Shown in pieces: positions 9,023-24,456 of a DNA stretch of 25,233 nucleotides; the first letter of the stretch is position 1, and each line of letters opens with the position of its first letter. The translations under genes and the position numbers were made by a program. Under the pieces are notes generated by a model. The model was not told the origin of the DNA and ran no database searches. It saw only the letters and a list, made by a program, of their open reading frames with translations. The stretch comes from a virus: positions 1-25,233 of IMG/VR virus record IMGVR_UViG_3300032088_000074; one strand, 5' to 3'.

Positions 9023-9042
9023 AAAAACTATTCTTTTAAGCT
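9015..9042. terminator. Bidirectional terminator between convergent gene blocks
   Basis: AGCTT-T-AAAA (9015-9024) pairs with TTTTAAGCT (9034-9042), with one bulged T. The hairpin includes both stop codons of the converging genes and has A/T runs on either side. This is the expected spot to separate late and early transcription. Confidence 0.5.
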
Positions 9043-9627
9043 CATTACTGAATTAGGATTGTCATTGTAAGAATAATAAAACTCATGGTTTTTGTGTATC
9101 TCACTAATTAACTCATCGAACATTTCTATTTCTACTGATAATTCATTTTCGTTGTTTTGCAATTCTTCTATTTTAAAAATAAAATTCTCATAGAAAAACT
9201 GCGGATTGCAATTTTTCTTTTTATGTATCTTCTTATAGAAATCTCTAAGCATATTTACTTTATTACTAATTTCTTTTTTCTTGTTTTTCAACTTCATAAG
9301 CATATTGTTTAATGCTCCAATAACATCACTTAGTGTTTGAAAATTAGACTCAGTAATTACATCAACTATTAATCCTTCAAATACAGATTTAAAATATTCT
9401 ATTTTAATTTTTTCAGTAATTTCTTTTGTGCTACCAGTAATATCATAAGTTTGTCTTCTTTTAGAATTAGACAATACATTATAAGCCTCTTTAATAGCTT
9501 TAAATTCTTTTTCTTTACCTTTTACTAGGTCAGGGTGATTGAGTTTAACTAGCCGTTTATAGGCTAGTTTAATCTCTTTGTCAGTAGCTTTTTTATCTAC
9601 TTCTAGTAATGCATACAAGTCTTTCAT
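9028..9627 (-). CDS. DnaJ (J-domain) co-chaperone-like protein
   Basis: A 199-aa protein. Residues 1-62 are a complete J domain: 'DLYALLEVDKKATDKEIK', then 'AYKRLVKLNHPDLV' with the essential HPD at 31-33, then 'FKAIKEAYNVLSNSKRRQTYD'. This domain stimulates host Hsp70/DnaK ATPase. The rest (~75-199) is a lysine-rich coiled-coil region without the Gly/Phe segment or zinc-finger domain of full DnaJ, so it probably targets DnaK to a phage-specific client. The start overlaps the YopX stop (TAATG arrangement). It is the terminal gene of the minus-strand early block. Confidence 0.85.
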   Translation of the reverse strand: MKDLYALLEVDKKATDKEIKLAYKRLVKLNHPDLVKGKEKEFKAIKEAYNVLSNSKRRQTYDITGSTKEITEKIKIEYFKSVFEGLIVDVITESNFQTLSDVIGALNNMLMKLKNKKKEISNKVNMLRDFYKKIHKKKNCNPQFFYENFIFKIEELQNNENELSVEIEMFDELISEIHKNHEFYYSYNDNPNSVMSLKE

Positions 9628-13989: not shown

Positions 13990-14676
13990 TTATAAATAAC
14001 TATCAATACTAGGTAAGTCTTCATTTGTCTCAAAATACTTTTCACAACGTTCTTGAAATAAATTCAAATCGTTAGGAATGTACTCAGGTGCTAAACCTAA
14101 AGGTGTTTTAGCTGAAACTGTACTGTATTTAGAATTTTTGTTTGTTAAGAATACATACTTAAACTGTGAATCTTGTTCTTCAACAGTTGAATATAGTACG
14201 TTTACAAACTCTTTTTCAATAGATTTTTTCCATCTATTACCTTGAACTACTGCATATCTTTCAGATATACCTTCAGGCGTTTCTATTACTTGGTCAATAG
14301 AAATCATAGCAACATACTTATCTAAAGAAGACTTTGACTTCTTAAATACTTCAGATAATGTTTGATTGTATAAATTCCATTTGTCAAAACCACCTCCCGT
14401 TATACGTTCAGCATGTTCATCAATCATTTCTATCAAAGACGTTAAAGACTCAACTACTATGTGAGTTATTTTATCGCTTTTTAAAGCTTTATCAAAAGCT
14501 TTCTCGAACTGTGGATAGTTATGTATCGCAAAGTTCATTTTAAAATCTTTACCCTCTCTAAAAGGCAACGCTTTTCTTTCTGTATTAAAGATAATCGTTG
14601 TCTCTTTAGGTAAATTTCTGATACTACTAGATTTACCAGTACCAGATGCCCCTAGAATTAGTGTGTTTGGCTTCAT
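13990..14676 (-). CDS. Sak4-like RecA-fold ATPase (AAA_24)
   Basis: A 228-aa ATPase. Walker A is 'GASGTGKSS' at residues 9-17; 'TTIIFNTERKALPF' is the following strand, as in Sak4/AAA_24 proteins; a Walker B-like strand is 'THIVVESLTSL'. 'VAMISIDQVIETPEGISERYAVVQGNRWKKSIEKEF' matches the conserved R-x-x-x-x-Q-G-x-x-W-K region. These proteins are short RecA paralogues that promote single-strand annealing or strand exchange together with a phage SSB. The SSB candidate, NinB and exonuclease downstream support a phage recombination module. Confidence 0.78.
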   Translation of the reverse strand: MKPNTLILGASGTGKSSSIRNLPKETTIIFNTERKALPFREGKDFKMNFAIHNYPQFEKAFDKALKSDKITHIVVESLTSLIEMIDEHAERITGGGFDKWNLYNQTLSEVFKKSKSSLDKYVAMISIDQVIETPEGISERYAVVQGNRWKKSIEKEFVNVLYSTVEEQDSQFKYVFLTNKNSKYSTVSAKTPLGLAPEYIPNDLNLFQERCEKYFETNEDLPSIDSYL

Positions 14677-16680: not shown

Positions 16681-17427
16681 TCAATTCCATTGAATACTTT
16701 TTGATGTTAATGTTTCTAATGACACATAAATACCTTTATGTGTCATTTGTTCTTTTGTTAAAAGCTCATCTAATAGATTAAGTCCATGACTTGCAAGCAA
16801 AGGGTTCATAAATAGCTTTTGCTTTGATATAGCTTCTGCTATAGAGCAACTAGGTTCGTTTAAATCTTCTTTAGTTTCTAAATAATTTTTAGGAAAACCA
16901 TATTGAGGTATATCTTTTTTAACGTTTTTACCTGGAATGTAACTTACGTATACTTGTCCATAATCGTAACTGTTACCAAAATCAATAATATAAACACCTT
17001 CTCCATGATTTATTAGTTGTCCTTTTATTTTATGAGAAATATAGTCGTAAACTTTTCTTCTTACTTCCATATTATCAGGACATAATATGATCACTTGTGT
17101 GTCTTTTATTTTTTTTACATCATACTTTTCTTCAAAAGCATTCCAATCAAAGCCATAATTTCTATTGATATTGCTAACAATAGTCATAGCTTTACTTTCT
17201 CCTATTTCATTATCGTTATAAAGTTGTCTAACTGTGTTAGAATGACTTATAACATCAGGGTCGTAAACATTTACGTTTATCCCTTGACTATTAATCACGA
17301 GTTCTTTATGCACTAAGCTTAATTTTGCTAAACCTTGTAAAACATAAGAACCAGTACCTCCAACACCTATTAAATCTATATTAATAGGTGCTAAAGGATT
17401 AGATAGAAAACTTTTTATTAAGTGCAT
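16681..17427 (-). CDS. PRTRC system ThiF-family (E1-like) protein
   Basis: A 248-aa ubiquitin-activating-enzyme-like adenylase. The Rossmann loop is 'GVGGTGS' (21-27). 'VYDPDVISHSNTVRQLY' (D56, D58, R67, Q68) and 'IGESKA' (K79) match the ATP- and Mg-binding residues of ThiF/MoeB/E1; 'CPDNMEVRRKV' (D118) follows. The C-terminal 'PSCSIAEAISKQKLFMN' with C194, then 'LLASHGLNLL', is the pattern I remember for PRTRC ThiF proteins, making C194 the candidate thioester Cys. It would adenylate the C-terminal Gly of the neighbouring PRTRC-C. Its start overlaps PRTRC-B by 29 nt. It is the last gene of the cassette. Confidence 0.88.
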   Translation of the reverse strand: MHLIKSFLSNPLAPINIDLIGVGGTGSYVLQGLAKLSLVHKELVINSQGINVNVYDPDVISHSNTVRQLYNDNEIGESKAMTIVSNINRNYGFDWNAFEEKYDVKKIKDTQVIILCPDNMEVRRKVYDYISHKIKGQLINHGEGVYIIDFGNSYDYGQVYVSYIPGKNVKKDIPQYGFPKNYLETKEDLNEPSCSIAEAISKQKLFMNPLLASHGLNLLDELLTKEQMTHKGIYVSLETLTSKSIQWN

Positions 17428-18109
17428 TTAGTACATCTTTAATTTTTTTACCACTATCAATATGATTTATATATTGATCTTTTTCTTTCATTTTATAAAA
17501 ATCTGATGATTTTAATTTTAGTCCTGCAGTTAAATGATTGTTAAATTTACTGTTCCAAAATAAATTATGTAATTGTGTTTTTAACATTCTTAAACTTCTA
17601 AAAACATCATAACCTCCATGACCTCCTAAAGAATTTCCCCAACATATCTTACCGTTGTCATAAACATTAGGAGTAGCTAATCTGTAAAGTTTAGTTTCTA
17701 AATGTCTAAATTTCTTGTAGGCATAAACATAAACTTCATTACCATCATATACCCAAAAAGTATTAGGACAATAATAAGTTTCATTTTTAGTACCAATTGA
17801 AATTATTCTTTTTTGAGGTTTATCTGTCCATGCTACTAATGTGTTGTCATCAGAGTTATCTAACCAAAAAAAAGTATTAGGTTTACAATCTATATTTAAT
17901 TTAGGACTAAATGATTTATCAACAACTAAGTCTTTTAGAAAGTTAATTGTTTTTAAACTAGCAGGCTTACCTACTAACATTTTACCATTTTTATCTATAT
18001 CTCGTACTTCAACATAGTTTTCATTTGAATTATTATTATAAAAAATCATTGTTTTTACTGGTAATAAATTCTGTATTGGTTTAAATACATCTTCTTTTAA
18101 ATCTGCCAT
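17399..18109 (-). CDS. PRTRC system protein B (prokaryotic E2-like)
   Basis: A 236-aa protein. The region 'TYYCPNTFWVYDGNEVYVYAYKKF' then 'TKLYRLATPNVYDNGKICWG' (P-x-N-V-Y-x-x-G-x-x-C-W-G-N) is the hallmark of PRTRC protein B, which is related to the prokaryotic E2 (UBC-fold) family. C156 is the candidate active-site Cys that would accept the ubiquitin-like PRTRC-C from the ThiF E1. The C-terminal helix-rich part ('MLKTQLHNLFWNSKFNNHL') also fits. The start overlaps the 337-aa gene by 13 nt and the end overlaps ThiF, so the set is translated as a unit. Confidence 0.82.
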   Translation of the reverse strand: MADLKEDVFKPIQNLLPVKTMIFYNNNSNENYVEVRDIDKNGKMLVGKPASLKTINFLKDLVVDKSFSPKLNIDCKPNTFFWLDNSDDNTLVAWTDKPQKRIISIGTKNETYYCPNTFWVYDGNEVYVYAYKKFRHLETKLYRLATPNVYDNGKICWGNSLGGHGGYDVFRSLRMLKTQLHNLFWNSKFNNHLTAGLKLKSSDFYKMKEKDQYINHIDSGKKIKDVLNALNKKFSI

Positions 18110-19110
18110 AAGTAATCTGTTAATTTTTTAATGTATTGAAGTGTTTCAAAGTGCTTTGTTGTGTTTACAATACCATCTAATGAATATTCTTTTTTATAAA
18201 CTAATCTTTCAAATTCATAATTATTCCAATAATCATTTAAGTGATGTTCATATTCGTCAAAAATTTCATCGTCTAAAGGAAGTATGCACATATAAGATTG
18301 AAAAGGTACTATTGTATCTTCATCTTCTATATTTTTTATGTTTCCAATTAATTCACTAAAAGAAAAATCTTCACAACTAAAGCTTTTATAATGATTAACC
18401 ATTTCTAAAACTTTCTTAATTTGTTTAGTATGGTTAGGAATTTCCATTATGTAATCATAATGCCATTCATTAGTTCCATTTATAAACTCAGTCGTACATT
18501 CTTTTAATTTTACTATAAAATCATTTTGATACTTTTGTTGTGAAATTTCTATAGTTCTTTCTTCGTTTACTTCATCAAACCAATAATCCATTGTCATTAA
18601 AAAAGTATCATTATCAACTGCTGTTGAATAATTGTATTTAATAATTAAGCTTCCAATAATATATCTTATTATCTTTTTAAGATTTTTATCTTCAACTTTA
18701 TCAATACAACTAAGAGTAATACAATTACCTACTTCTGGTTCTTCACAATAAAGAATTATTGATTTACCATTAAAAATTATGTTGTCATAATTAAAATAAT
18801 GTCTTTCAGCTTCTAATAAACTTTGTAAGTTAGAATTAAGAAATTTAATTAATTCTTCTTGATTTAGTTTTGAAATATATTTTAAATTAATATTAGTGTA
18901 TTTGTGTAAAATACTTAATAACGATAAAAATACATTTTCAATTTTATCAATTTCATAATTTTCTAATAAAGAAATTACAGGGGAAAACGTAAGGCTCCTT
19001 TCGGAACCTTTATTCGTTTTTCTTCTTTTGATTCGTTCAAGACTCTTCGGCAAATCTTTGTATGTAACGCATTGTCCAACGTAACGATTGATTTCTTTTC
19101 TTTGTTGCAT
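18097..19110 (-). CDS. Large protein in the PRTRC-F position
   Basis: A 337-aa protein rich in Glu, Asn, Ile and Tyr, mostly helical with some strands. It has no transmembrane segment and no motif I can name. PRTRC cassettes usually encode protein F (about 340-350 aa) between C and B; length and position match, but sequence similarity could not be tested. The start ATG 19110 (MQQRKEINRY) implies a 136-nt overlap with the 67-aa gene. No in-frame ATG lies near the end of that gene, so either the overlap is real or a non-AUG start or -1 frameshift is used. Confidence 0.6.
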   Translation of the reverse strand: MQQRKEINRYVGQCVTYKDLPKSLERIKRRKTNKGSERSLTFSPVISLLENYEIDKIENVFLSLLSILHKYTNINLKYISKLNQEELIKFLNSNLQSLLEAERHYFNYDNIIFNGKSIILYCEEPEVGNCITLSCIDKVEDKNLKKIIRYIIGSLIIKYNYSTAVDNDTFLMTMDYWFDEVNEERTIEISQQKYQNDFIVKLKECTTEFINGTNEWHYDYIMEIPNHTKQIKKVLEMVNHYKSFSCEDFSFSELIGNIKNIEDEDTIVPFQSYMCILPLDDEIFDEYEHHLNDYWNNYEFERLVYKKEYSLDGIVNTTKHFETLQYIKKLTDYLWQI

Positions 19111-19178
19111 ATGTTTAACACATTTTCGATTACCCTTTTGGGTAAAGATTCGTAAACTTTTTGAATAAAACTTTTCAT
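18975..19178 (-). CDS. Small PRTRC-associated protein (67 aa)
   Basis: The ATG at 19178 overlaps the PRTRC-C stop by 4 nt (ATGA), the strongest coupling signal in the cassette. The protein is basic, with 'ESLPKRVIENVLNICN' and a helical middle, and ends 'IKVPKGALRFPL'. Small proteins after PRTRC-C in Bacteroidota elements often end in a similar proline-rich tail, as far as I remember. The last 136 nt overlap the following 337-aa gene in another frame. The role in the conjugation system is unknown. Confidence 0.6.
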   Translation of the reverse strand: MKSFIQKVYESLPKRVIENVLNICNKEKKSIVTLDNALHTKICRRVLNESKEEKRIKVPKGALRFPL

Positions 19179-19381
19179 CCTTTTGTTCCTATTTTAGTTT
19201 CAAATTTATATACAATTTTGTTTTTAACTACATTAGGTTCAGATAGATGAGCGTTTACTAATTCAGGATATGAATTTGCATAGAAATCTAAAACTTGTTT
19301 TAAAGTAAAGTTTGGATTAGGGTCTGCGAGTGTAAGTTCATTGAACTTAAATTCTCTTACTAATTTTTCTGTCTTAGTCAT
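19175..19381 (-). CDS. PRTRC system protein C (ubiquitin-like modifier)
   Basis: A 68-aa protein. 'REFKFNELTLADPNPNFTLKQVLDFYANSYPELVNA' followed by 'KIVYKFETKIGTKG' is a near-textbook PRTRC-C (prokaryotic ubiquitin, Prok_Ub-like): beta-grasp strands, the L-A-D-P-(N/D)-P turn, F-Y-(A/S)-x-x-Y-P-E-L and the C-terminal G-T-K-G. Ending in Gly without an extension means it would not need processing before activation by the ThiF-like E1. It overlaps PRTRC-E by 8 nt upstream and the 67-aa gene by 4 nt downstream. Confidence 0.9.
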   Translation of the reverse strand: MTKTEKLVREFKFNELTLADPNPNFTLKQVLDFYANSYPELVNAHLSEPNVVKNKIVYKFETKIGTKG

Positions 19382-19982
19382 TAAAATTTAATTTATTGTA
19401 TCTTTCTTCCATCATTGATTCAATTTGCTCAGGACTTAATTGTTTAGATTCAACTACTTTAGGCTGTGCTGGTGCCGTATAAGCTTGTTCTTGAAACAAA
19501 CCAACACTTCTGTTGTTTTTATCAAGTTTAGACTTACAGGACATAGCTAATGAGCTTTTAGGGTCAAGTTTAAATGCTGCATCAATTAATTTTTGAGCTT
19601 CTTTAAAAGATTTTTCTTCAATTAATTTATCAAAATCTTCTAATTTCTTTTTCACTTTTTCGTCAAGAGTTTTTTGTTTCTTCTTTTTCTCCTCTTCCAT
19701 CTTTGACTCTGCTTTCATCTTTTTTGTCGAATCAATAAAAGAGTTCATGTTTGTGGTTACTTTTGAAATTTCAGTAAATTGATTTTCTAAAGAATTACTA
19801 AGTTCTTGTAAAAGACTTTCAACTTCAGTACTTGTTACAATAAATGGTACAATCAACTTCGCGCTTTCGTCAGAAGTTTTTGGCTTTGGAAGTACTGAAA
19901 CAGTAAATTCATTGCCAACTTTCTTAAATGCTACAACAATATCTATATTGTCTAGCTTTTCTAAAATTTGTTTAAATATCAT
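19374..19982 (-). CDS. PRTRC system protein E
   Basis: A 202-aa protein. The first ~80 residues ('MIFKQILEKLDNIDIVVAF' then 'VSVLPKPKTSDESAKLIVPFIVTST') match the N-terminal beta domain of PRTRC-E. Residues ~80-130 are a Lys/Glu coiled coil, and 'FDKLIEEKSFKEAQKLIDAAF' (~117-137) looks like a single TPR-type helix pair. The C-terminus is Gln/Pro-containing. The function in the system is unknown. It leads the cassette (E-C-x-F?-B-ThiF) and has a large leader palindrome (19996-20042). Confidence 0.85.
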   Translation of the reverse strand: MIFKQILEKLDNIDIVVAFKKVGNEFTVSVLPKPKTSDESAKLIVPFIVTSTEVESLLQELSNSLENQFTEISKVTTNMNSFIDSTKKMKAESKMEEEKKKKQKTLDEKVKKKLEDFDKLIEEKSFKEAQKLIDAAFKLDPKSSLAMSCKSKLDKNNRSVGLFQEQAYTAPAQPKVVESKQLSPEQIESMMEERYNKLNFND

Positions 19983-19995
19983 AGTTTTAAATTTT

Positions 19996-20042
19996 AATTA
20001 TCAAGTCACAACGGGATAAACCCATTGCAACTTTTGATAATT
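19996..20042 (-). promoter_or_regulatory. Leader palindrome 4, upstream of PRTRC-E
   Basis: AATTATCAA (19996-20004) pairs with TTGATAATT (20034-20042), and an inner CAACGGG/CCCATTG stem closes an ATAAA loop. In minus-strand sense it carries GGTTTATCCCGTTGTG, a variant of the TTTTCCCTTTG motif. The CCC lies 31 nt upstream of the ATG. The outer arm overlaps the DUF932 stop, so it could also terminate that gene. Confidence 0.55.
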
Positions 20043-20937
20043 AAGCGTAAACTAATTTAGAAATTTCAGAAAATGCTTTAGCATCTATCTTTTGACCTGA
20101 TCCAATCATTTTGCTTTCCATTAATTCTTTATTTCCTGGTAAATCTCTATTAGTATAAGAGGTTACTCCTGAAAATAATCCCCATAAAGTTTGACCTTTT
20201 TGAGAAGATTCTTCAGCAATACGAAGAGTTAAATTCCTTGCTTTGTTAATTGCATTTGTAGAGTAATTATCACTTGCTTCTTGAGCATTCATTGTAACAT
20301 CTACACCTACTAAGCTTTTAATTAACCTTTTAATGTCATTAGGTTTAGATTCTATCTCATTCATCTTTTTAAAGGTATCATAAAGGCTTAATTCTGATTC
20401 TTTAAAATCATCAATACCAAACATAATAGTGTCTATTTTTTCACGCATAGTTTTAGTATGTCTTACTTTGTGAGCTAAATCTCTATAAGCTTTGTGAAAA
20501 ATATTACTACAACTAATAGTTTTATTAGTCATTCCTAATCCTACACCTGAACTACCATCATGGCTGTTTGTTATAGTTATATACTTATCAATTTGATCGT
20601 TATTAAGACCAATATTTTTAATAGAACCACTGTCTATTTGCATAAATACTTTACGACCTTTTTGTAAAGAACCACCTTTAACTACATTTCCACCTAATTT
20701 TGTAGCAATTTCATTAGTTAATTCTGCTAAATCCCAGTTTTGAAAAACTTCATAGCCATCTTTACAAGTCATAAACTCTAAATCATTATCACCTCTACGA
20801 ATAGAAAGATAATCTGAAACAATTCCTTCTCTAGTAAAAAGGTTTTCTTTTTTGACTTCCCAAAAAAGATTGTGTTGTTCTAACAAGTCCATTACCATTT
20901 GTCCTTTGTTTTCAACTTCGTTAATTTGATTTTCCAT
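20041..20937 (-). CDS. DUF932 (phage/plasmid-like) protein
   Basis: A 298-aa protein. The core 'ITNSHDGSSGVGLGMTNKTISCSNIFHKAYRDLAHKVRHTKTM' is the DUF932 signature (S-H-D-G-S...C-x-N...x-R-H-T), preceded by 'LEFMTCKDGYEVFQNWDLAEL'. Members occur on plasmids, ICEs and phages. Their role is unproven. In Bacteroidota ICEs, as far as I recall, a DUF932 gene often precedes the PRTRC E-C-B-ThiF genes, the same order as here. A 10-bp leader hairpin lies 20 nt upstream (20958-20988). Confidence 0.85.
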   Translation of the reverse strand: MENQINEVENKGQMVMDLLEQHNLFWEVKKENLFTREGIVSDYLSIRRGDNDLEFMTCKDGYEVFQNWDLAELTNEIATKLGGNVVKGGSLQKGRKVFMQIDSGSIKNIGLNNDQIDKYITITNSHDGSSGVGLGMTNKTISCSNIFHKAYRDLAHKVRHTKTMREKIDTIMFGIDDFKESELSLYDTFKKMNEIESKPNDIKRLIKSLVGVDVTMNAQEASDNYSTNAINKARNLTLRIAEESSQKGQTLWGLFSGVTSYTNRDLPGNKELMESKMIGSGQKIDAKAFSEISKLVYA

Positions 20938-23595: not shown

Positions 23596-24456
23596 TTAAA
23601 ATATATATCTAATTAAATTCCATTTAATAATACTATCATGAAGTTTTATAAACGATTTAATATAATCACGTTTTAAATTGTGTTCATATCTAATGTTTGT
23701 ACCTCCATAGCTTGAAACTTTGCTTTCTTGGTTTTCTGGTGTCCATAACAAACTTTCTCCTTTTTTGTCGTTTTTAACATTTTGATAATGTTTTTTTTCG
23801 TTGTGCGTTAAAAAGATTACTTCGCATTTTACTTGTTCTTTGTAATCTATATAATCATTACAAAGTTGAAATAAATATTTATAATCTTCTAACCAATCAG
23901 GATAAACAACAACAGGACTAAAGTTTAAATGAACATCATATCCAGCATCAATAAAAGCATTTACAGCTTTTATTCTATCAATAATTTTAGGTGTACCAGG
24001 TTCAAGATAATTTGAAATCTTTTGTGGCATCAAGCTAAATCTAATTCTTACTTTACCGTTTGGGTTATATTTAATAAACTCAATGGGTATAATTTTAGTA
24101 GCTAAAGTAGCCATAGCTAAAGGATGATTTTTAAAAAAATCAAAAATCTTTTCCCAATCATGATACTTTCTATGTAAAGCAAAATCTTCATTACAAGCTA
24201 TATCGTATGTCATATAGCTTTCATGTGTTTGATTAGGCTTACTAGCGTTAGCTACAAAGTAAGAATGACTATTAATTTCACTTAAAATCTGATTAACATT
24301 TTTAGAAACAGTTAAACCTTTTTCTAAATGTCGTTTCATATAACAATAAGTACAGTCTAATAAACAACCATAACCAAAAGAAGGAGTAATGTAATCACTA
24401 CTCCTTCCTGATTCTCTTATTGTCATAGTCTTTCGGTCTACATAGTTAACTATCAT
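23596..24456 (-). CDS. Radical SAM protein, spore photoproduct lyase-like
   Basis: A 286-aa protein. 'TPSFGYGCLLDCTYCYMKRH' carries the radical-SAM C-x3-C-x2-C cluster (C31, C35, C38), which binds a [4Fe-4S] centre. The rest resembles SplB-family proteins: 'TYDIACNEDFALH', 'ATLATKIIPIEFI', 'VRIRFSLMPQKISNYLEPGTPKI' (S/R-x-S-x-x-P region) and 'INAFIDAGYDVHLNFSPVVVYPDWLEDY'. The C-terminal 'WNLIRYIF' fits too. SplB repairs UV-induced spore photoproduct. Homologues on phages may repair thymine photoproducts or modify nucleotides. The start overlaps the upstream stop (ATG 24456). Confidence 0.82.
   Translation of the reverse strand: MIVNYVDRKTMTIRESGRSSDYITPSFGYGCLLDCTYCYMKRHLEKGLTVSKNVNQILSEINSHSYFVANASKPNQTHESYMTYDIACNEDFALHRKYHDWEKIFDFFKNHPLAMATLATKIIPIEFIKYNPNGKVRIRFSLMPQKISNYLEPGTPKIIDRIKAVNAFIDAGYDVHLNFSPVVVYPDWLEDYKYLFQLCNDYIDYKEQVKCEVIFLTHNEKKHYQNVKNDKKGESLLWTPENQESKVSSYGGTNIRYEHNLKRDYIKSFIKLHDSIIKWNLIRYIF

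Follow-up and report, generated by a model that had tools for sequence, protein, structure and literature searches.

A marine crAss-like phage lineage, related to the crAss-like phages of the human gut, carries a compact PRTRC-type cassette, that is, a set of genes for a bacterial ubiquitin-like tagging pathway, beside its DNA-replication genes. The window analysed here (the whole 25,233-nucleotide stretch of IMG/VR record IMGVR_UViG_3300032088_000074) had been predicted from its sequence alone to encode such a cassette, with the genes in the order E, C, a 67-aa protein, a 337-aa protein, B and ThiF downstream of a DUF932 gene, and our analysis confirms that observation. The accompanying interpretation, that the phage uses the system on a virion or host target or carries it to counter host defences, is only partly supported: the cassette type and the phage context hold up, but nothing in our data shows modification of a virion or host protein, or counter-defence. 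In order of transcription, the block comprises:

20041-20937, minus strand: DUF932 protein (TIGR03299-like), 298 aa, first gene of the block
19374-19982, minus strand: PRTRC protein E, 202 aa
19175-19381, minus strand: PRTRC protein C, ubiquitin-like modifier, 68 aa, ending in the reactive-type glycine with no tail
18975-19178, minus strand: small protein X, 67 aa, an unnamed PRTRC component
18097-19110, minus strand: PRTRC F-position protein, 337 aa, predicted to be largely helical, fast-evolving
17399-18109, minus strand: PRTRC protein B, candidate E2-like (Prok-E2_D), 236 aa, candidate active-site Cys156
16681-17427, minus strand: PRTRC ThiF, E1-like adenylating enzyme by homology, 248 aa
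15093-16514, minus strand: DnaB-type replicative helicase
13990-14676, minus strand: Sak4-like ssDNA annealing protein, downstream in the same block

To establish the identity of each gene, we compared its product with NCBIfam and Pfam profiles (scores are given as bits/cut-off). C passes both TIGR03738 (77.9/46) and Prok_Ub (83.8/25), and ThiF passes both TIGR03736 (170.1/144.75) and Pfam ThiF (53/28); the ThiF profile also matches eukaryotic E1s and Cap2 in the PDB, with E-values down to 2.5e-8. E passes Pfam PRTRC_E (PF19556; 48.3/26) but not TIGR03741 (29/38), and B passes Pfam Prok-E2_D (50.8/25) but falls well below TIGR03737 (37/131), such that, contrary to a straightforward family assignment, E and B are divergent members that miss the NCBIfam cut-offs. 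DUF932 (77.8 bits), DnaB (DnaB_C, 262 bits) and the Sak4-like protein (PHROG 2872, E 1e-24) were also identified. Neither F nor X had a meaningful library hit; a match of the 67-aa ORF to DfrL (20.6 bits against a cut-off of 370) is spurious. F is linked to the system only by profile-profile comparison, in which hhalign matched it to the F-position proteins of Bacteroidota cassettes (probability 97%, E 4.9e-11) but not to proteobacterial F or directly to TIGR03742, with control comparisons at or below 1.3%; its position is conserved.

The residues quoted in the original prediction are real and conserved, and ThiF has the GxGGxG, Asp, Arg finger, Lys and catalytic-type Cys of the E1-like ThiF superfamily. 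In ThiF, R67, Q68, K79 and the catalytic-type C194 are conserved in 98-100% of 176 ThiF proteins, and G21, G23, G24, G26 (the GxGGTG motif) and D58 are likewise at least 98% conserved. In B, P115, N148, C156 and G158 are conserved in 96-100% of 166 proteins, N148 and C156 each at 96%. C ends KIGTKG-stop, and its G65, K67 and G68 are 97-99% conserved. A UBC fold for B, which had been set in advance as a point on which the prediction could fail, was neither confirmed nor excluded by fold comparison: the AlphaFold model (pLDDT 82) had no Foldseek match at E ≤ 0.001, a single E2 (Ube2W) appearing at E 1.2 and TM 0.23, and the B profile, like that of C, hit no PDB chain. The helical model of F (pLDDT 82) similarly had no significant match in the PDB.

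The 67-aa ORF is real. X begins on the stop codon of C (GGATGA) and overlaps the start of F by up to 136 nt, although the true start of F may lie further downstream, within X. It is 67 aa in all relatives, and third-position variation is seen in its non-overlapping part (19/22 versus 21/44). A small gene X follows C in most PRTRC cassettes surveyed, its terminal motif being found in 121/155 cases as opposed to 1-11% after other main cassette genes. When an HMM of X was built without the phage copies, the phage X ORFs ranked at the top of 691 small ORFs, but with individually weak E-values (0.38-8.8). We also considered a frameshift fusion of X to F, but no clear slippery heptamer was seen by eye.

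The element carrying the cassette is a phage. Although a near-identity DNA search of the phage collection gave no match, seven separately assembled relatives share the syntenic arrangement, and all those covering the region retain the gene order. One ~70 kb relative, G005, has 153-bp terminal repeats and encodes a terminase, a portal, a Crass_capsid protein (177.9/27) and a crAss muzzle protein (crAss_MUZ, 319/27); G005 is syntenic with the window, but the window fragment itself does not contain these genes, and the assignment is to the crAss-like phages (Crassvirales) and not to a particular family. No tyrosine integrase was found in G005 or in G004, the second ~70 kb relative, making a non-integrating lifestyle plausible. 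Every gene tested is under purifying selection (dN/dS 0.07-0.55). Thus, chance is excluded as the source of the arrangement, and although PRTRC is typical of plasmids, host or plasmid sequence mis-assembled into a viral contig, or a decaying acquired cassette, is very unlikely.

To ask whether the cassette is a stable part of these genomes, we searched for phage contigs using DnaB alone. The same seven relatives were recovered together with one more, G019 (DnaB 47%), all with ThiF, such that every phage contig found at 47% DnaB identity or more has the cassette beside or near DnaB; a further locus, L034 (DnaB 64%, ThiF 47%), has the same gene order. The cassette is therefore a retained part of the replication module, and its conserved linkage to DnaB and Sak4 over deep divergence points more to a replication-module function than to an accessory anti-defence gene, as anti-defence genes are usually accessory and variable. 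Counter-defence, in which host defence proteins would be tagged and disabled during infection, is for this reason unlikely but remains in contention, as PRTRC genes travel on many mobile elements and B and F evolve faster than the rest of the cassette (dN/dS 0.24-0.55 for B and F, 0.27-0.55 for F itself, compared with 0.07-0.26 for C, E and ThiF and 0.04-0.10 for DnaB and Sak4). Such rates are expected if B and F face changing partners, host factors among them. We also note that the linkage to DnaB may reflect a hot spot for insertion, since a sister lineage (G028) without PRTRC has unrelated genes between DUF932 and DnaB (in the order DUF932, a 432-aa protein, an M42/M28-like peptidase, DnaB). 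The DUF932 gene, close to DnaB in both lineages, is probably part of the phage's own module.

No JAB protease (A) is encoded in the cassette, and neither Prok-JAB nor ParB_N was detected in G004 and G005. A is also absent from the Bacteroidota PRTRC cassettes surveyed and so is not universal, and a ParB homologue was seen within the flanks examined of only 24 of ~212 surveyed loci, a lower bound given the single-sequence seed. Across 193 cassettes, scored by the actual C-terminal ending of C, 66 of the 68 with A have a tail on C and two do not, whereas none of the 125 without A has one; six sequences that a motif pattern alone would score as tailed without A, and seven that it would leave unmatched, all end in KG or LG. 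This association reflects only about three or four changes on the ThiF tree and is phylogenetically weak. The phage probably makes C ready to use and has no dedicated deconjugase.

These observations are, with moderate confidence, best explained by a JAB-less and ParB-less PRTRC-type conjugation cassette kept in the replication module of this lineage. In the mechanism we propose, ThiF would adenylate the C-terminal Gly68 of C and take it onto Cys194 as a thioester, C would pass to Cys156 of the E2-like protein B, and B, guided by the fast-evolving F with E and X as accessory subunits, would attach C to lysines of one or more target proteins. C would be made already mature, with no need of a processing protease, and in the absence of a JAB enzyme the tag would not be removed by the element itself. 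The most likely role would be to mark host or phage proteins to favor establishment or replication of the element's DNA, a function shared with PRTRC plasmids and other mobile elements. The sequence analysis itself demonstrates gene identity, conservation of catalytic-type residues, the mature C-terminus, purifying selection, linkage to DnaB, and the lack of detectable JAB, ParB and tyrosine integrase in two ~70 kb relatives; the enzymatic steps are inferred, no biochemistry for any PRTRC system having been found in the literature searched (where several of the high-count hits for "PRTRC" look like Rhizobium tropici plasmid names, pRtrCIAT899, and not the cassette). The target and purpose are speculative, and the replication or establishment role, although favored, is tentative and rests on indirect evidence.

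Three other roles appear less likely. The cassette might act in inter-element competition or defense by tagging proteins of competing phages or plasmids, much as the bacterial Bil (ISG15-like) system conjugates a ubiquitin-like protein to the phage central tail fibre (PMC11364771), and temperate phages and plasmids do carry PRTRC. However, a phage that does not integrate gains little from lysogen-type exclusion, and PADLOC models, including the specific ones for Bil and CBASS-type E1-E2 defense, gave only weak, domain-level E1-E2 matches to ThiF (best E 1.8e-5) and none to C, F or X. Virion assembly or modification is improbable: lambdoid phages carry the Ub-like TAPI with JAB/NlpC proteins in the tail assembly module (PMC1779556), but here the cassette lies in the replication block on the opposite strand to the structural module, and PRTRC plasmids have no virion. 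Equally improbable is a sulfur-carrier pathway (ThiS/MoaD-like) in which C would receive a thiocarboxylate from ThiF. This would fit the ThiF/MoeB homology and the small glycine-ending carrier, but no rhodanese, cysteine desulfurase or biosynthetic partner was seen among the family hits in the cassette, and an E2-like family protein (B) with a conserved Cys accompanies ThiF in nearly all cassettes.

The closest counterparts are the PRTRC cassettes of Bacteroidota mobile elements and plasmids (for example, Tunicatimonas pelagia plasmid NZ_CP120684 and the Mucilaginibacter/Flavobacterium loci L179 and L183), which have the order E-C-X-F-B-ThiF, no A gene, a C ending exactly at Gly and often DUF932 upstream, and with which the ThiF of the window nests. 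The window differs in being a phage genome with the cassette beside DnaB and Sak4, its ThiF is 30-36% identical, and F and B are much diverged. Complete proteobacterial cassettes, such as those of pMOL28 and Burkholderia phage BgVeeders33 (OK665841), have the same core genes in the same order with the small ORF X between C and F, but they have A and a C with a C-terminal tail, and pMOL28 also has ParB. Operon type 6d of Iyer et al. 2006 (PMC1779556) likewise combines Ub-like, alpha-helical, E2-like (with Cys) and E1-like proteins, although it was described with JAB always present, and no phage members and no small gene X are mentioned in the section consulted. The Bil (BilABCD) system shares the Ub-like/E1/E2/JAB logic but is a host-encoded defense with a two-domain BilA and a JAB protein, and we saw no close sequence relationship.

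Gut crAss phages (Steigviridae) carry a distant ThiF and JAB pair at an equivalent locus, downstream of DnaB and Sak4. In crAss001, gp76 matches PRTRC ThiF (hhalign E 1.5e-39) and gp77 resembles PRTRC A (probability 91%, E 1e-6), but the partner genes differ and no C, B, E or F homologue was detectable: gp79, gp78 and gp75 were compared with C, B and F and gave hhalign probabilities of about 1% or less, and although gp79 looks Ub-like by eye we do not claim it as such. It is possible, if unlikely on present evidence, that ubiquitin-like conjugation is a standing part of crAss-like phage biology, with the marine lineage using a PRTRC cassette with a pre-matured modifier and gut crAss phages (crAss001 gp79-gp76 region) using a diverged relative in which the E1 and JAB genes are still recognizable, and the tag acting in DNA replication or takeover of Bacteroidota hosts.

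PRTRC cassettes are widespread on mobile elements but have no known function, in part because they sit on large plasmids with no simple phenotype. The original prediction described them as mostly reported from plasmids and integrative elements, which is incomplete: in addition to the marine lineage, a second, temperate phage group, consisting of the cultured BgVeeders33 and at least 20 other proviral contigs sharing its terminase, carries the cassette. Its retention in a phage replication module, and its presence on a cultured phage, give it a plaque, burst and DNA-synthesis phenotype by which its purpose could be tested and, if our reading is correct, link ubiquitin-like tagging to crAss-like phages. 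The JAB/tail pattern predicts which systems need processing and which tag without a dedicated removal enzyme, and X is a missing component that any reconstitution should include. The BgVeeders33 cassette is complete but unannotated and passes all six cut-offs, and in this unrelated phage, too, it lies about 3 kb from dnaB.

To check the original prediction of a PRTRC ubiquitin-like cassette, we first examined the gene content of the 25,233-bp IMG/VR virus record. In transcription order on the - strand, the genes are DUF932, E, C, a 67-aa ORF, a 337-aa ORF, B, ThiF, DnaB, and Sak4. When the predicted proteins were scanned against NCBIfam and Pfam, C (TIGR03738, 78 bits against a cut-off of 46; Prok_Ub, 84/25) and ThiF (TIGR03736, 170/145) were above cut-off, whereas E (PRTRC_E, 48/26; TIGR03741, 29/38) and B (Prok-E2_D, 51/25; TIGR03737, 37/131) passed the Pfam but not the NCBIfam thresholds, and the 67-aa and 337-aa proteins hit nothing meaningful. 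The residues that had been singled out are present and conserved: R67, Q68, K79, and C194 of ThiF in 98%, 99%, 100%, and 100% of 176 proteins, and N148, C156, and G158 of B in 96%, 96%, and 98% of 166 proteins. The observation of such a cassette on this DNA was therefore borne out.

To understand what type of element carries the cassette, we examined seven IMG/VR relatives that share the block. Two of these are 69-71 kb, and one, G005, has a 153-bp exact terminal repeat and so is probably complete. Its terminase, portal, and capsid match PHROG families, and Pfam identifies the capsid as Crass_capsid (178 bits, cut-off 27) and a 1447-aa protein as the crAss muzzle protein (319 bits); its predicted virion module also encodes a 3,360-aa protein (G005:C1:23618-33700) with no PHROG or Pfam match. 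By capsid and terminase, the best matches among named phages are crAss-like gut phages and Flavobacterium phages such as FpV4, at about 24-29% identity. The window is thus a fragment of a crAss-like phage lineage, although this identification rests on the syntenic relative because the window itself lacks head genes, and the lineage is probably marine, judging only by the company of its relatives. No tyrosine integrase was found in the two ~70 kb relatives, G004 and G005.

To ask whether the cassette is a core or an accessory feature while avoiding the circularity of searching with ThiF, we searched with DnaB. This returned the same seven relatives and an additional contig, G019 (DnaB 47% identity), all with ThiF, plus one remote contig with 28% DnaB identity in which no cassette gene was found. 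A further locus, L034 (DnaB 64%, ThiF 47%, DUF932 33%), keeps the whole gene order, and G019 keeps E, C, B, and ThiF with extra genes between them. In contrast, a sister crAss-like lineage with 42-43% capsid identity has DUF932, an unknown 432-aa protein, an M42/M28-like peptidase, and DnaB in the slot (contig G028, locus L287, 4624-9249), such that the region between DUF932 and DnaB appears as an exchange slot. The cassette therefore entered or was retained in one branch at the DUF932-DnaB junction and has been kept since. All cassette genes tested are under purifying selection, with F (dN/dS 0.27-0.55) and B (0.24-0.35) evolving fastest. We also note that ThiF (16681-17427) is 86% identical in the closest relative, L005, whereas most neighbouring genes are 89-99% identical (B 92%, C 99%, DnaB 97%; F 78%), suggesting recombination around ThiF.

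The ThiF tree places the window and L034 inside a clade of Bacteroidota elements (Pedobacter, Mucilaginibacter, Algoriphagus, Flavobacterium), several of which also have DUF932 just upstream. Acquisition from such elements is the simplest reading, although the DUF932 proteins are only about 25% identical, and joint transfer is not shown.

We next compared the anatomy of about 200 cassettes using HMMs seeded from the window, plasmids, and phages, which gave a nearly constant order of E-C-(X)-F-B-(A)-ThiF. Two patterns emerged. First, the JAB protein A and a C-terminal tail on C go together: 66 cassettes have A and the tail, two have A without the tail, 125 have neither, and none has the tail without A. 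The ThiF tree needs only three changes of A and four of the tail, so the independent evidence is thin, but the sense is clear: where the processing enzyme is missing, C is encoded mature. The window phage is of this type, and no Prok-JAB was found in G004 or G005. JAB has been proposed to release the Ub-like moiety in related phage and bacterial systems, and this operon type (6d) was described with JAB always adjacent (Iyer et al., 2006; PMC1779556). In prophages resembling Burkholderia phage BgVeeders33 (proviral loci such as L064, L071, L123-L140, and L010, the last being the BgVeeders33 locus), the tail of C is itself a conserved segment of ~60 aa (AHVCPLLDEEVAFINALHARY...), so the part released by JAB may have its own function.

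Second, a small ORF, X, of about 41-73 aa follows C, often overlapping its stop codon (ATGA), and ends in a conserved terminus of the R-x-L-P... type. This motif occurs after C in 121 of 155 deduplicated loci, compared with 13/149 after E, 13/167 after B, 1/97 after F, and 19/170 after ThiF. X overlaps the predicted start of F in many cassettes and matched no named NCBIfam family in the copies tested. In the window lineage it is 67 aa in every relative, and in the part that does not overlap F its variation falls mostly on third codon positions (19/22 vs 21/44). An HMM built without the phage copies still ranks them first among 691 small phage ORFs, though with weak E-values. The 67-aa protein listed in the original prediction is therefore a real, apparently undescribed PRTRC component.

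The 337-aa protein aligns by profile-profile comparison to the F-position proteins of Bacteroidota cassettes (probability 97%, E 4.9e-11, with controls at or below 1.3%), but not to the proteobacterial TIGR03742 F. It is predicted with confidence to be largely helical (pLDDT 82), and no relative was found in the PDB. For B, AlphaFold gave a model (pLDDT 82) with a beta meander before the Cys and helices after it, but a Foldseek search, addressing the UBC fold that had been set as a criterion in advance, found no significant E2 match. The assignment of B as an E2 rests on Pfam Prok-E2_D, the conserved Cys motif, and Iyer et al.; we consider it likely, but not shown.

To determine whether other phages carry related genes, we searched 50,697 phage records with ThiF, which found 43. 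One is Burkholderia phage BgVeeders33, and the other listed matches are crAss-like phages or related uncultured records with the distant crAss-type ThiF. The cultured phage BgVeeders33 (OK665841.1, 25952-30438) has a complete cassette in the order E-C-X-F-B-A-ThiF, in which E (66/38), C (107/46), F (104/58), B (203/131), A (224/102), and ThiF (289/145) are all above the NCBIfam cut-offs and X is 61 aa; five of the six cassette proteins and X are annotated 'hypothetical protein'. Twenty-one viral contigs with PRTRC share its terminase, one of them nearly identical to it, and its cassette lies about 3 kb from dnaB. In gut Steigviridae, crAss001 gp76 is a PRTRC ThiF relative (hhalign E 1.5e-39) and gp77 resembles A (91%, E 1e-6; Prok-JAB just below cut-off, with HSH...SxxD), both downstream of DnaB and Sak4. 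The adjacent gp78 and gp79 show no detectable relation to C or B. The JAB-like gp77 and the PRTRC-ThiF-like gp76 sit in a conserved row with two unassigned genes in eight crAss-like genomes (in crAss001, gp79-gp76; NC_049977.1, locus L011, 4241-8651) and are annotated as 'thiamine biosynthesis' and 'metalloprotease', raising the possibility of a second ubiquitin-like system. We found no paper linking crAss phages to ubiquitin-like systems, or PRTRC to phages, in the open literature, to which our search was confined.

These collective observations are best explained by a pathway in which ThiF would activate mature C and B would transfer it, with F, E, and X providing specificity or scaffold, and with no dedicated deconjugase present. 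The gene order, family matches, conserved residues, purifying selection, and retention beside or near DnaB are results of the analysis, whereas the enzymatic steps are inferred and the target and purpose of the pathway are speculative. The retained position in the replication module and the shared presence on plasmids and phages favour a role in establishing or replicating the element, although counter-defence, competition with other elements, virion modification, and sulfur transfer remain possible, in about that order. The original interpretation, that the phage uses a ubiquitin-like conjugation system on a virion or host target or to counter host defences, is partly supported: a PRTRC-type cassette on a genuine phage is, whereas nothing here shows modification of a virion or host protein, or counter-defence. 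As the cassette is PRTRC-type but lacks A and ParB, we regard it as a variant rather than a textbook member of the family.

Two other genes of the window, both on the - strand, are conserved in the relatives. The protein encoded at 9028-9627 begins with a J-domain-like region (DnaJ), and that encoded at 23596-24456 resembles a radical-SAM spore photoproduct lyase (Pfam SPL, 85 bits) and is conserved at 93-98% identity in the relatives that cover it.
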